Positions 43,097 through 48,341 of a stretch of 64,000 nt of DNA are shown here, piece by piece; position 1 is the stretch's first letter; each line of letters opens with the position of its first letter. A program made the translations under genes and the position numbers. The DNA is taken from NCBI GenBank assembly GCA_949284715.1, contig CASDWH010000015.1, positions 1 through 64,000 on the forward strand. Direction: 5' to 3'. The notes beneath the pieces were generated by a model. It was given only the letters and a program-made list of their open reading frames with translations, did not search any database and had not been told where the DNA came from. This DNA comes from an uncultured bacterium (lineage in GTDB: Bacteria > Cyanobacteriota > Vampirovibrionia > Gastranaerophilales > Gastranaerophilaceae).

Positions 43097-43384
43097 ATGT
43101 CAGAAGATAAAATTGTAAAACTCGGCGCTAAACGCGGGAAAAAAGAACCCAAACAACACGAACATCATCACAGCCAAAACGAATTTGTACCTTCAAGAGA
43201 ACTTATTAATTGCAGTTTTTGCGGGCGTTCTTCTGCCGAAGTTATAAAAATGGTTAAAGGCCCCGGTGTGAATATTTGCGCCGAATGTACGATGATTGCC
43301 GTACAATACCTGATACTAAATGACAGACTTCCGTCAGCGGAAGCCCAGATGATTCTTGATGCATTTTGGGGAAAAGCTAAATAA
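43097..43384 (+). CDS. stand-alone ClpX-type zinc-binding domain protein
   Basis: 95 residues. After a basic, His-rich 35-residue tail, a zinc finger Cys39-x2-Cys42-x18-Cys61-x2-Cys64 (INCSFCGRSSAEVIKMVKGPG, NICAECT) matches the N-terminal zinc-binding domain of ClpX in both spacing and surrounding residues. No AAA+ module is attached. In ClpX this domain dimerises and docks substrate adaptors such as SspB and also some substrates, so a free copy could compete for or bring in substrates. It lies 10 bases after the preceding gene and 19 before the next one. Homology clear; function inferred. Confidence 0.8.
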   Translation: MSEDKIVKLGAKRGKKEPKQHEHHHSQNEFVPSRELINCSFCGRSSAEVIKMVKGPGVNICAECTMIAVQYLILNDRLPSAEAQMILDAFWGKAK

Positions 43385-43403: not shown

Positions 43404-45002
43404 ATGAATAAAATCCAAATAAAAGCTGAATTTTTGATGCTGTTATCTAAGCTTGAACTTGGCAACAGTGATTGTTTGGATAGTCTTGAAATGCTAAAAA
43501 AAACAGGTGAAAACAGGTATATTATTGAAGTTGCCCTGAAAGAAGCCGTTTCAGGCGATGATAAAAAGCTTTCAGCCATACTATTTATACTAAACCAGAT
43601 TATTGAAAAAAATATTCTGGAAGAACAATTGTGGGAATATATTAAGGATAATGAATATCCGGACAGTATAAAAATTGCCGCTTTTAATATCTTAAGCCAA
43701 CTTAATCCGGACTGCAACTATCTTTCCGTTAAAGATTACATCGCAGATATAGAAACTATTATTGAAGACGAAACAAAAGAAGTGTTAGCCTCAGCCCTGA
43801 TGAATCCTGAGGCGCAAATAGATTTTATGGACTTTTTAAAATCCTTAAATGAAGATGATAAAGTAACCCTTCTTGGCTCCCTAAAAGAGGATTATGACGG
43901 AGATGCGCTTGCAAACATTATTATACCTGTTTTCCTCTACGCTCCGAACACTAAAGAAGGACTTGTTGCTCTTAATCTGCTAGGAGATACTAAATCACAG
44001 CTTGCGTTCCATGAACTTGAAAAATCACTTGATTTTGTAAGCGAGGAACTTAAGCCGATTGTTAAAAAAAATATGTCTAAACTCAAACTCTCAGGTATCA
44101 GAGTTGATGAAACACTTAAATTTTACAAAGAAATTTTATCAGTTTCCAGCCCGTATAAATCAATAATATCGTATCCGGACGGTCACGGAAACATGGCAAT
44201 CATCTTCACAAGAAAAAGATTTGAAGATAATTCAATCCAGCTCCTTGCAATTGTTATTAACAACAGATACGGAATGCTTGATAGCTTTGGTTTCAATTCA
44301 ATAACAGAAGATGACTATCTGATGATAAAAGACAGGTTTGTTAACGGCAGCCGGTGTATAGAAATTACACCTGAACTTGTAAAATACCTGCTTAACAGCG
44401 CAGAAAAAACTTCCCGCAAAAATAATGAGATGCTTCCATATGAGTACATTTGCTGGCGAAGCATTTTATCAGACATTGAAGAAAAAACACCGGATTTGAG
44501 TTTTAAAACGGTTGAATTAAACAATGATGATATTGAAGAAATTTGTAATCTGGATTTTATTGAAAGATGGTTTTTTGATTGTTTCACCTCTGACGAGTTT
44601 GCGGAACTAATCAGAAAATTAAATGCTAAACTCCGTGCAAATCAATTTTCAACTAATTTTACCCGGTTTGTAGAAGAAGAATTTGACAATATCTTCACAC
44701 AGGAAGAAATAGAAGCCCAGAATGGCAAAATTAATCTTGCAGCATACCTGAAAAAACTTGAAGGGAATGAAGAACTTGCTGATAAAATAGCATCAATAAA
44801 AAATAACAGAATATTTTTCTCAAATATTCTGAAAAAAAGTATTTATGAACACTACATAAGCAAACGCTGGCAGCTTCAAAATGAAAATAAATCTATTGAT
44901 GTTTTCAGTAAACGTTCCCGTTCCCCAAAAGACGAATTTAAGCGCCTGGAACTAGACTTAATAATAACGGGTATTGAATCGGAATGGGTAAAAAATGTTT
45001 AA
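43404..45002 (+). CDS. helical HEAT-like protein of unknown function
   Basis: 532 residues, no signal peptide or membrane segment. Residues 1-230 have the feel of alpha-helical repeats (KKLSAILFILNQIIEKNI, SIKIAAFNILSQLNPD), followed by a more compact alpha/beta part (residues 240-330, with NMAIIFTRKRFEDNSIQLLAIVINNRYG) and a helical C-terminus. GTGGAG lies upstream of the ATG. Its 3' end overlaps ruvX by 8 bases, so translation is probably coupled. No known family is recognised. Confidence 0.65.
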   Translation: MNKIQIKAEFLMLLSKLELGNSDCLDSLEMLKKTGENRYIIEVALKEAVSGDDKKLSAILFILNQIIEKNILEEQLWEYIKDNEYPDSIKIAAFNILSQLNPDCNYLSVKDYIADIETIIEDETKEVLASALMNPEAQIDFMDFLKSLNEDDKVTLLGSLKEDYDGDALANIIIPVFLYAPNTKEGLVALNLLGDTKSQLAFHELEKSLDFVSEELKPIVKKNMSKLKLSGIRVDETLKFYKEILSVSSPYKSIISYPDGHGNMAIIFTRKRFEDNSIQLLAIVINNRYGMLDSFGFNSITEDDYLMIKDRFVNGSRCIEITPELVKYLLNSAEKTSRKNNEMLPYEYICWRSILSDIEEKTPDLSFKTVELNNDDIEEICNLDFIERWFFDCFTSDEFAELIRKLNAKLRANQFSTNFTRFVEEEFDNIFTQEEIEAQNGKINLAAYLKKLEGNEELADKIASIKNNRIFFSNILKKSIYEHYISKRWQLQNENKSIDVFSKRSRSPKDEFKRLELDLIITGIESEWVKNV

Positions 45003-45399
45003 AATTATGGGATTAGACATCGGAACAAAGCGTATCGGAGTCGCGCTTAGCGATTATTTACACGTTACAGCCGTTCCGAATACCTGTGTTGACCGCCAGC
45101 CTGAGAATAAAGCGGTGGAAACTATAGTGAAAATAGCTTCAGAAAACCGCGTCAAACAGATAGTAATAGGTTTGCCGCTCAATATGGATGGTTCTAAAGG
45201 TAATCAGGCAAAAGATTGTGAAAAATTTGCAAAATATCTTTCTGGTTTTGATATAATATATGAAGATGAAAGATTGACATCCGATTTGGCAGAAGAACGG
45301 CTCCGCGAAAGGAAAGTTGATTTTAGAAAAAATAAAGGTCTTGTTGATATAGAAAGTGCATGTATCATTCTGGAACAATACTTATCAAAACTAAATTAG
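44995..45399 (+). CDS. ruvX: RuvX/YqgF RNase H-fold nuclease
   Basis: 134 residues. MFKIMGLDIGTKRIGVALSD gives the first catalytic Asp; VIGLPLNMDGSKG and YEDERLTSDLAEERL supply the others. YqgF proteins process 16S rRNA 5' ends in E. coli and also have Holliday-junction resolvase activity in other species. It overlaps the preceding gene by 8 bases and is followed 19 bases on by a DUF1292 gene, the same order as yrrK-yrzB in Bacillus. Confidence 0.92.
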   Translation: MFKIMGLDIGTKRIGVALSDYLHVTAVPNTCVDRQPENKAVETIVKIASENRVKQIVIGLPLNMDGSKGNQAKDCEKFAKYLSGFDIIYEDERLTSDLAEERLRERKVDFRKNKGLVDIESACIILEQYLSKLN

Positions 45400-45418: not shown

Positions 45419-45682
45419 ATGAGCGATAACCCGGAAAATATAATAGAAATAATTGATGAAAACGGAAAAACTATTTGTTGTGAACTATTTAACATAATTG
45501 AATTTGAAGGGAATGAATACGCTCTTTTACTCCCGCAGGAAGAAAAAGATAATGAAGACGCAGAATTTGTTGTTATGAAAATAATGGAAGATGAAGATGA
45601 CATTGCTTTCATAAATCTTGATGATGATGAATTTAACAGGGTATCTGAATATATCGAAAACATTCAGGATGATGAGGAGTAA
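45419..45682 (+). CDS. DUF1292 (YrzB-type) small acidic protein
   Basis: 87 residues, very acidic. The pattern ENIIEIIDENGKTICCELFNIIEFEGNEYALLLP and EFVVMKIMEDEDDIAFINLDDDEFNRV matches the DUF1292 family, which in Firmicutes (YrzB) lies next to ruvX. Function unknown. It follows ruvX by 19 bases; the next gene starts 2 bases after its stop, so translation of the two is tightly linked. Confidence 0.85.
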   Translation: MSDNPENIIEIIDENGKTICCELFNIIEFEGNEYALLLPQEEKDNEDAEFVVMKIMEDEDDIAFINLDDDEFNRVSEYIENIQDDEE

Positions 45683-45684
45683 GT

Positions 45685-47034
45685 GTGTTAGAAAAATTTA
45701 CGGAAAAAGCGGTAAATGTAATAATCGAAGCGCGGAATACAGCAGCAGAACTCGGAAGCAGCGAAGTTAAACCCGAGCATATATTACTGGCATTAGTGAA
45801 AGAAGCAAAAGGTATTTCTTTAAAACTATTTAAAATGCACAATATAACAGAACAAACGCTTTTGGATAAAATGGGTGTTGAATATTCAACCAACATCCAT
45901 ACCAGAGAAGTTCCGTTTGGCAAAGAATGCAAAGAAATCCTTAAGCGTACAATGGATTTTGCTAAAAAGACAGGGAATGAGAATATTCTTTTTGAGCATA
46001 TTTTCCTTGTAATCATTACTGATAAGAATTCTAATATTGACGAATTACTATCAGAATTCGGATTTGATTTTTATCAGGCGCGGGAAATTTTATCAAAACT
46101 TGTTCAAAGGAAAACAAAAAAACTTATCCACCCTGAAGCAGAAGATGAAGAAGATAAGAGCAAAACTTGTTTCGATTCTATATATGAAGGTTCCGAACTT
46201 TCTAATATTCTGGACAGTGCAGCCGCTAAATTATCTGCCTCGCACTACGAAATCCTCGGGACAGAACAAGTTTTCAGCGCAATACTGGAGGATTCCGACT
46301 CTGATTTATCAAAGATATTTGCAAGTGCAGGAATTACCCCTGAAATATTTGCAGAGGGATTAAATAAACAACAATCACGAAAGTCAGAATTTGAAGATAA
46401 AAAAATTATTTTCACACCAAATGCTTTCGGTGTTATGAATCTGGCCCTCCAAATTGCAAAAGAGTACGGTTCATCCGTCGTAAGACCGGAACATGTTGTA
46501 TTGAGTATTTTAACGTCAAAAAAAGGACTGGCTTATGACGTACTGAAAGATCTTAAGGTTAATGAAGAGGAACTTATACACGCAATTGTAAAACCTATAG
46601 AAAAGCAAATGCCAGAAACCCTCAGAATTCTGAGATTAGCCAAAGAAGAGGCACGAAGAATAGGCCGGAATATTGTCGGCACAGAAATGTTTCTGCTCGG
46701 CATTATTGCAGAAGGAACCGGAATTGGTGCTGCGGTGCTTAAAGAGCTTGAAATTACTCTTAAAGATGCAAGACTCGTAGTTGAAAATATTGTAGGATTT
46801 GGCAACGAGTATTTTGACAAAGAAATTGTATATACAAAACGCGCTAAAAGGGTTTTGGAGCGGGCATGGATGCTTGCCAAAAAACAAAATAAAACAAAAA
46901 TCGGCTCAGAGGATCTTCTCTCTGCAATAACAGAAGAACCCTCATCTCTTGCGATGAAAGTACTTGCCCAGCTAGGTGTTGATGCAGTCGAAATTAAGTA
47001 CGGAATTTTAAATGAATGCAGCAAGAACCAGTAG
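45685..47034 (+). CDS. Clp N-domain-only protein with six R-repeats
   Basis: 449 residues from a GTG start after GAGGAG. It consists almost wholly of Clp repeats: about 1-66, 72-140, 165-232, 245-312, 314-380 and 385-446, i.e. three double Clp_N domains (FTEKAVNVIIEARNTAAELG.., VRPEHVVLSIL.., RILRLAKEEARRIGRN.., RAKRVLERAWMLAKKQ..). The ATPase cores of ClpC/ClpB are missing: no Walker motif is present. ClpC N-domains bind substrates and adaptors such as MecA/McsB, so this could be a multivalent adaptor, decoy or scaffold. Bound by DUF1292 and tilS, it is in the housekeeping run. Confidence 0.85.
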   Translation: MLEKFTEKAVNVIIEARNTAAELGSSEVKPEHILLALVKEAKGISLKLFKMHNITEQTLLDKMGVEYSTNIHTREVPFGKECKEILKRTMDFAKKTGNENILFEHIFLVIITDKNSNIDELLSEFGFDFYQAREILSKLVQRKTKKLIHPEAEDEEDKSKTCFDSIYEGSELSNILDSAAAKLSASHYEILGTEQVFSAILEDSDSDLSKIFASAGITPEIFAEGLNKQQSRKSEFEDKKIIFTPNAFGVMNLALQIAKEYGSSVVRPEHVVLSILTSKKGLAYDVLKDLKVNEEELIHAIVKPIEKQMPETLRILRLAKEEARRIGRNIVGTEMFLLGIIAEGTGIGAAVLKELEITLKDARLVVENIVGFGNEYFDKEIVYTKRAKRVLERAWMLAKKQNKTKIGSEDLLSAITEEPSSLAMKVLAQLGVDAVEIKYGILNECSKNQ

Positions 47035-48341
47035 TTTTAAAAATCAAAAACTTTTTGGATAAATATAAACTGCACGGTAAAAAATTTGTTATAGGGTTTT
47101 CTGGCGGTTTTGATTCAATGTGTACTCTGGATATTTTATCAAGAACAGATGTACAGTTAATTGCGGCACACTACAACCATGGCTGGAGAATAGAAGCGGA
47201 TACCGAAGAACAGCATTGTAAGGAATTTTGTGAAATCCGCGGCATAGAATTTTACAGCGGGCATGCGCCAGAAGATTTAAAACACACGGAAACTGCCGCA
47301 AGAGAAGCAAGATACAATTTTTTAGAGCAAGTCCGGCAACTGTATAATGCTGACGGAATTATTACTGCCCACAACAGCGATGATAATGCCGAAACTGTTT
47401 TATACAGAATTATAAAAGGAACCGGAATATCCGGCTTAAAAGGGATTCAACCGGTTAGAGATAATATTTACAGACCAATACTTGACTGCACGCGTTCTGA
47501 AATTGAAACTTACTGCAAAACTCACAACCTTTCTCCTAATATAGATTCTTCAAACTCTGATATAAAATACAACCGGAACCTTATCAGACACAAAATTCTA
47601 CCGGCAATGGAGAGTATTAATCAGGAAGTTAAAAATTCTATTAACAAGCTCTCTGAACTGGCAAAACTTGATGAAAAAATTATTAATGAGTATATAGAAC
47701 AAATAACCCGAAATGTTCTTGATAATAACCGTATAATCATTCCGGAGTTTATCAAACTATCTGGCGCACTTCAACAAAAAATTATTTATAATCTGGTTTC
47801 AAAATACCTTGATGAATATGATTTAAAAAAAATAAAAGAGTGTCTGGCGTTTATTTCAGACAATTGCCAGAATAATGAAACTAAAAAGAAATCTCTTACT
47901 ACAGATATATGGCTCGCTGTTAATAAGCATGAATGTATAATTTACAAAGAAGAACCAGTTTATAGTAATGAAATTCTAATTAACGGATGCGGAGAATTTA
48001 AACTGGGCGAAAATGTTTTAGTTATTGAAGAATGTATTAAAGCCCCCGGGAAATTCCCTGAAGATAAAACAGGGATTGCCTATGTTGATTTATCAAAGAT
48101 TGTCTATCCTTTAACACTCAGACAGGGCAGAAATAATGATACTATTAAACCGCTCGGCATGAATGGTTCAATGCTATTAAAAAAATATTTAAGCGGAAGA
48201 AGAATTACACAATACAAAAGGAAAAATCTTCCGGTGCTTGCCTGCGAGAATGAAATACTGTGGGTTCCGTTTGTCGGGCTAAGTTCAAATATTGCCGTAA
48301 ATAGTATCCCGACTCATAAATTATATTTTTTAGCAGAATGA
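47016..48341 (+). CDS. tilS: tRNA(Ile)-lysidine synthase
   Basis: 441 residues. It adds lysine to the C34 of tRNA-Ile2 so it reads AUA. Seen: the PP-loop ATP motif FSGGFDSMCTLDILS, AHYNHGWR, THN-type EAR repeat (AAREARYNFLEQ), HNSDDNAETVLYRIIKGTG, RPILDCTRSEIETY, and a C-terminal TilS_C domain ending in AVNSIPTHKLYFLAE. It overlaps the Clp N-domain gene by 19 bases. It is the last gene before the tRNA. Confidence 0.95.
   Translation: MQQEPVVLKIKNFLDKYKLHGKKFVIGFSGGFDSMCTLDILSRTDVQLIAAHYNHGWRIEADTEEQHCKEFCEIRGIEFYSGHAPEDLKHTETAAREARYNFLEQVRQLYNADGIITAHNSDDNAETVLYRIIKGTGISGLKGIQPVRDNIYRPILDCTRSEIETYCKTHNLSPNIDSSNSDIKYNRNLIRHKILPAMESINQEVKNSINKLSELAKLDEKIINEYIEQITRNVLDNNRIIIPEFIKLSGALQQKIIYNLVSKYLDEYDLKKIKECLAFISDNCQNNETKKKSLTTDIWLAVNKHECIIYKEEPVYSNEILINGCGEFKLGENVLVIEECIKAPGKFPEDKTGIAYVDLSKIVYPLTLRQGRNNDTIKPLGMNGSMLLKKYLSGRRITQYKRKNLPVLACENEILWVPFVGLSSNIAVNSIPTHKLYFLAE

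Follow-up and report, generated by a model that had tools for sequence, protein, structure and literature searches.

Proteins built from the Clp_N domain without an ATPase, and rare tandem Clp_N repeats, are already known. ClpC2 and ClpC3 of actinobacteria are Clp_N-only proteins (PMC10030653, PMC10864484). Mycobacterial ClpC2, in which a single Clp_N unit is preceded by a separate N-terminal domain for dimerisation, binds ligands of the ClpC1 N-terminal domain such as cyclomarin, competes with ClpC1 and thereby protects it, may be a holdase, and represses its own gene, whose promoter it binds (PMC10030653). ClpT has been described as confined to the plastids of algae and plants (PMC7966870). 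Away from Clp ATPases, Clp_N repeats have otherwise been reported as rare fusions, in FtsH-ternary and vWA-MoxR conflict systems (eLife 2020, PMC7159879). Overall, the Clp_N-only proteins of mycobacteria (ClpC2, ClpC3) and plastids (ClpT) guard or tune the Clp protease.

We focused our attention on a gene in a window of 64,000 nucleotides, the whole stretch of DNA analyzed here, from an uncultured bacterium of the order Gastranaerophilales, a group of gut bacteria related to cyanobacteria and lacking photosynthesis. The analysis establishes an ancient, order-specific protein made of three different ClpC-type N-domains and no motor. An earlier note on this DNA had related it to Clp_N-only proteins of plants and cyanobacteria, named as ClpT and ClpS-like. 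The cyanobacterial part does not agree with the plastid confinement of ClpT (PMC7966870), and ClpS belongs to a different fold family (PF02617), to which the protein gave no match in Pfam. The closest functional comparison, actinobacterial ClpC2/ClpC3 (PMC10030653, PMC10864484), was absent from that note.

Anatomy and predicted fold

The gene and its putative ribosome binding sequence are located as follows:
45685..47034, + strand: six-repeat Clp_N protein (Clp_N x6), 449 aa, GTG start, composed of three double domains without an ATPase
45674..45679, + strand: SD-like GAGGAG, within the last part of the DUF1292 gene and 5 nt before the GTG; a similar overlap is found in relatives

Scored as a whole against Pfam, the 449-aa protein matched Clp_N with an E-value of 9.8e-49 (163.8 bits), and a six-frame search resolved six matches (45742-45864, 45958-46101, 46240-46365, 46444-46587, 46639-46797 and 46870-46998). 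Each scored 26-41 bits, above the curated cut-off of 20.7 bits for Clp_N (PF02861), so that profile matches and fold agree in placing the protein in this family. No AAA domain, nor any other non-Clp_N domain, exceeded its Pfam cut-off in the protein. Neither a Walker A motif nor a Walker-B-like pattern is present, and Walker A is also absent in 42 relatives; the protein thus lacks the AAA+ module with Walker A/B by which Hsp100/ClpC unfoldases are recognized. The start assignment is well supported, since residue 1, encoded by GTG, aligns with Met1 of ClpC (M/L-FERFTEKA) and the SD-like GAGGAG lies 5 nt upstream.

An AlphaFold2 model, computed from 73 input sequences, reached a mean pLDDT of 83.4 and a pTM of 0.62, and contains 24 helices, four per repeat. 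The predicted heads were compared with known structures using Foldseek and VIA-align, and all three pairs fold like N-domains of ClpC, ClpD or ClpT. In the predicted model, head 1 (residues 1-141) matches the ClpD N-domain (Z 17.4), head 2 (residues 162-305) matches S. aureus ClpC (Z 16.2), and head 3 (residues 310-449) matches the ClpC1 N-domain, with 5gui as best row (Z 24.2); relative to ClpC N-domains, head 3 shows 34-43% identity and an rmsd of about 1.4 A. Sequence matches to 5gui (ClpC) gave E-values of 4e-32 (head 3), 3e-12 (head 1) and 7e-12 (head 2), by which head 3 is the closest of the three to ClpC N-domains. The linker joining head 1 has low confidence in the model and is probably flexible, while heads 2 and 3 adjoin almost without a linker.

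Altogether, the anatomy reported in the earlier note is borne out: all six Clp R-repeats pass the Pfam cut-off and fold as such, the three joined double domains are recovered by both Pfam and the AlphaFold2 model, with a ClpC-type N-domain fold on each pair as the proposed structure check asked, and no hidden ATPase core was found.

Distribution, descent and the Clp system of the hosts

A total of 79 complete loci in public records encode a full-length orthologue, 436-461 aa long; the record titles refer to Gastranaerophilales, Melainabacteria or gut bacteria, with a few other labels. Within the order Gastranaerophilales, 106 of the 116 genomes sampled encode a full-length six-repeat orthologue (37-91% identity), and the ten without a full-length match are partly incomplete assemblies. 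Among 40 other genomes of the class in this sample no such orthologue was found, the nearest being at most a ClpC-type partial match. Moreover, a profile search of 386 genomes of the phylum returned E-values below 1e-115 in nearly all genomes of the order, and about 1e-40 or weaker outside it. The protein is neither a fragment nor an oddity of a single genome, and we regard its anatomy and distribution as near certain. It is also not essential everywhere, as two compact genomes belonging to one genus, G008 (98% complete) and G047 (89% complete), are devoid of it and keep ClpC. In these two genomes, a gene beside rnhB encodes a protein of 143 aa with just one double Clp_N domain (L231:4519-4950 and L226:1264-1695, both on the - strand).

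A tree of double domains placed head 2 and head 3 in one clade each across the order (SH-aLRT 99), and head 1 near one group, where the grouping was not resolved. As heads cluster by position order-wide, the tree indicates that the triplet predates the split of the order, and a recent internal triplication by tandem duplication is ruled out. Regarding relatives with 4, 6 or 8 repeats, for which the earlier note proposed a search, the orthologues of the order are all of six-repeat length, and other numbers occur in a family of the class (f8), whose proteins have two, about four, about six, or eight to nine repeats. Clp_N is the sole domain of these f8 proteins, except for one short overlapping histone-fold hit, and in G082 and G145 tandem Clp_N-only genes are found (L229:3910-7130 and L230:4154-9291). 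In another family of the phylum, the protein encoded at L233:3270-4127 combines an N-terminal ArsR-type helix-turn-helix with a C-terminal double Clp_N domain, an arrangement which makes a Clp_N ligand-sensing transcription factor possible.

The source genome encodes ClpX and two ClpPs, and its assembly gave no ClpC-type AAA match. Clp_N matches were present in all 99 relatives sampled, the best one mostly lying in a ClpC-sized open frame, and ClpC is present in all congeners. When the 5.5-kb clpC region of a congener was compared to the source genome, neither clpC nor the adjacent mnmA was found, and the stretches upstream of the congener's clpC aligned for the most part with the starts of contigs (C19, C20). 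Since clpC and mnmA are absent as a block and the upstream stretches match contig starts, ClpC is probably missing through an assembly gap, and not through evolutionary loss. The idea that the six-repeat protein replaces an absent ClpC was hence rejected, as congeners all have ClpC and a gap is likelier. The absence of clpC and mnmA from an assembly rated 99.97% 'complete' is in itself a caution on inferring gene loss.

Retained residues and proposed role of the protein

The repeats and the ClpC-type positions they retain are:
45685..45909, + strand: repeat 1 (head 1), ClpC T7/E32-type site present as T6 (43/43) and E31 (38/43)
45910..46119, + strand: repeat 2 (head 1), F78 as invariant aromatic of the groove; K83, E104
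46120..46182, + strand: linker of low confidence joining heads 1 and 2, H149-P150-E151 invariant in 43 order-wide sequences
46183..46398, + strand: repeat 3 (head 2), whose start is the most divergent; E194
46399..46608, + strand: repeat 4 (head 2), T244/E269 site complete and invariant
46609..46818, + strand: repeat 5 (head 3), directly after head 2; E334 invariant, Pro in place of Thr
46819..47019, + strand: repeat 6 (head 3), retains T384 and K388; its Glu site is degenerate (E in 22/43)

Site positions of ClpC were taken from PMC12583610, the source for residue roles in its N-domain, with titles of CymA co-crystals also drawn on, and were scored in 43 order-wide sequences. The groove aromatic (F80 position) is retained in all heads (F78 43/43, F243 39/43, F/Y383 39/43). 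The K85 position is retained in heads 1 (38/43) and 3 (42/43), and is occupied by Phe or Tyr in head 2. Complete Thr+Glu sites of the phosphoarginine type are found in repeats 1 and 4 (T244 and E269 both 43/43), Ser+Glu predominates in repeat 2, Glu alone is retained in repeat 3, and in repeat 6 Glu is gone in half of the sequences. Thereby, residues of both the groove and the phosphoarginine site of ClpC are retained in head 1, and one complete site in head 2; head 3, where conservation peaks, has kept a single Glu together with the regulatory Lys and the aromatic residue of the groove. These retained residues suggest that the heads may bind ligands, even if part of the pocket conservation may reflect fold stability.

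The earlier note had taken the three joined domains as a sign of multivalent binding. This is plausible from the sequence, but the picture of equal copies does not hold: the heads have diverged in their residues and form separate clades, so 'three different heads' appears the better description. As to the nature of the ligand, a search for the arginine kinase family (PF00217, McsB) gave no match in 59 genomes, and none in control genomes either; the control Bacillus subtilis, whose genome is known to have both families, was matched by neither the Clp_N nor the arginine kinase profile. The negative arginine kinase result therefore carries no weight, and phosphoarginine is an undecided candidate.

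We favor, with a probability of roughly 45%, the reading that the protein is a multivalent, motor-less competitor or holdase for ligands of the ClpC N-domain, ClpC2-like in its action without belonging to the ClpC2 family. This reading is based on six Clp_N repeats without an ATPase, ClpC-type folds, selective retention of ClpC ligand-site residues, heads in separate lineages, the existence of a ClpC/ClpP machine and the precedent of ClpC2. The protein would stay in the cytosol, where its heads would engage, simultaneously and through multiple contacts, the ligands usually bound by the ClpC N-domain, with unfolded segments, tagged substrates, and adaptor proteins or peptides as candidates. As it has no motor, bound ligands would not be unfolded and the protein would compete with ClpC, either by holding substrate or by sponging up deregulating peptides. 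The outcome may be a tuning of ClpC-ClpP proteolysis, as mycobacterial ClpC2 does. Start codons are consistent with a restrained dose: of 80 loci, 66 have TTG or GTG as the first codon of the six-repeat gene, and 10 of 18 deep-branching loci start with Leu at the same position (TTG start as called), while ruvX and the DUF1292 gene, operon neighbors of the six-repeat gene, start with ATG (78/79 and 72/72, respectively). Retention of a weak start across loci suggests a limited amount of the protein, which would be kept below that of the operon neighbors.

We consider rather unlikely, at this stage, a more ambitious version, in which a three-headed, motor-less docking domain with head specialisation would be a constitutive ClpCP regulator (decoy, holdase or trans-allosteric switch), order-wide and in ClpS-less hosts, and would represent an undescribed mode of AAA+ protease control.

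Alternatively, the protein could be a positive adaptor or scaffold, with one head on ClpC or on an adaptor and the others holding substrates for delivery to ClpCP. Three diverged heads do suggest a division of labor, and ClpS, the standard adaptor of the ClpC N-domain, was absent from all 58 order genomes tested, in a search in which positive controls matched. However, most sister families without the six-repeat protein (f9-f12, f14) lack ClpS as well, which leaves no specific link and argues against a simple replacement of ClpS; moreover, we know of no N-domain-to-N-domain binding across proteins in a delivery mode. We see this as an unlikely role.

Less likely still is a trans-allosteric regulator. 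Its heads would imitate the N-domain of ClpC and dislodge it from the contacts that anchor it to the M-domain and the AAA1 ring, thereby either activating resting ClpC or locking it. In ClpC of S. aureus, the N-domain contributes its pArg sites and K85 to stabilising the resting state (PMC12583610), and K83, K388 and the Thr/Glu sites kept in the six-repeat protein match these residues, but this reading presupposes that ClpC of Gastranaerophilales forms such a resting state.

A ClpT-like accessory subunit of the ClpP core, steering assembly of the protease ring, is improbable: the fold is the same (head 3 versus ClpT1/T2, Z 18.9 and 19.7), the hosts are cyanobacterial relatives and the source genome has two ClpPs, but ClpT is reported only from plastids and associated with the ClpP/R core, has one domain instead of three, and is matched in sequence by head 3 far more weakly (6e-5 and 2e-4) than ClpC is.

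Equally improbable is a recruitment outside proteolysis, e.g., with RuvX, TilS or a helical neighbor protein, which was considered in view of the following genes:
43097..43384, + strand: 95-aa protein, ClpX C4 zinc finger (PF06689) without an AAA domain, nearby gene
43404..45002, + strand: 532-aa protein, mainly helical, with a minor beta portion; neighbor conserved in the subclade, gene order-wide
44995..45399, + strand: RuvX/YqgF, conserved neighbor
45419..45682, + strand: DUF1292 protein, immediately upstream of the six-repeat gene, 2-nt gap
47016..48341, + strand: TilS, immediately downstream; overlaps the six-repeat gene as called

Almost all of the 80 closest loci with enough contig share the gene order 532-aa protein, ruvX, DUF1292, six-repeat gene and tilS, often with the zinc-finger-only ClpX-like gene in front. 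However, none of these neighbors is adjacent to the six-repeat gene in 18 deep-branching loci, where neighbors vary and have no tie to clp genes. The 532-aa gene also occurs in nearly all order genomes tested, including G008, G044, G047 and G065, where no six-repeat protein was detected. The operon is therefore not strong evidence of a common task. Function could likewise not be read from the 532-aa protein, a layout of helical repeats, a four-strand element and further helices, which matched neither a Pfam family nor, at E <= 0.001, a fold in the PDB. It may be added that the zinc-finger-only protein and the six-repeat protein, each a motor-less version of a Clp ATPase docking domain, are encoded within 3 kb.

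Comparison with known Clp_N proteins

The support gathered so far for the competitor or holdase reading consists of anatomy and evolution. Our literature search found no paper naming both Gastranaerophilales and Clp protease, and no six-repeat, order-wide conserved protein with unequal heads. A three-unit version kept nearly order-wide, with unequal site retention, is a natural test of the ClpC N-domain sites without the motor. Moreover, as the ClpC N-domain is the target of anti-tubercular peptides, a natural multivalent version may serve as a tool.

Among described systems, the conflict systems (PMC7159879) are multi-gene and have Clp_N fused to vWA, whereas the six-repeat protein has no fusion and the ten neighboring proteins scanned with Pfam contain no vWA, MoxR or FtsH domain. 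The f8 proteins of G082 and G145 are likewise Clp_N-only and include about six repeats among their repeat numbers, but they are divergent and show no firmly supported grouping with the six-repeat protein in the double-domain tree. Plastid ClpT1/ClpT2 are similar as Clp_N-only accessory proteins of the cyanobacterial/plastid line with the same fold; however, they have one double domain, are plastid-only, bind the ClpP/R core and show weak sequence similarity, whereas here all complete orthologues (436-461 aa) are of a size with three double domains. Every head shares its fold, and several ligand-site residues, with the N-domain of ClpC (cyanobacterial/plastid, Bacillus/Mycobacterium), but unlike ClpC the protein has no AAA modules or M-domain and carries three domains in one chain. 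It differs from ClpC2, too, in its phylum and in opening directly at the ClpC-like FERFTEKA, with three Clp_N units and no extra domain, instead of a dimerisation domain and one unit. Nevertheless, it resembles ClpC2/ClpC3 as an ATPase-less relative of ClpC with a Clp_N ligand domain, encoded apart from ClpC, and its head 1 matches ClpC2 in sequence (8ad9, 3e-9).
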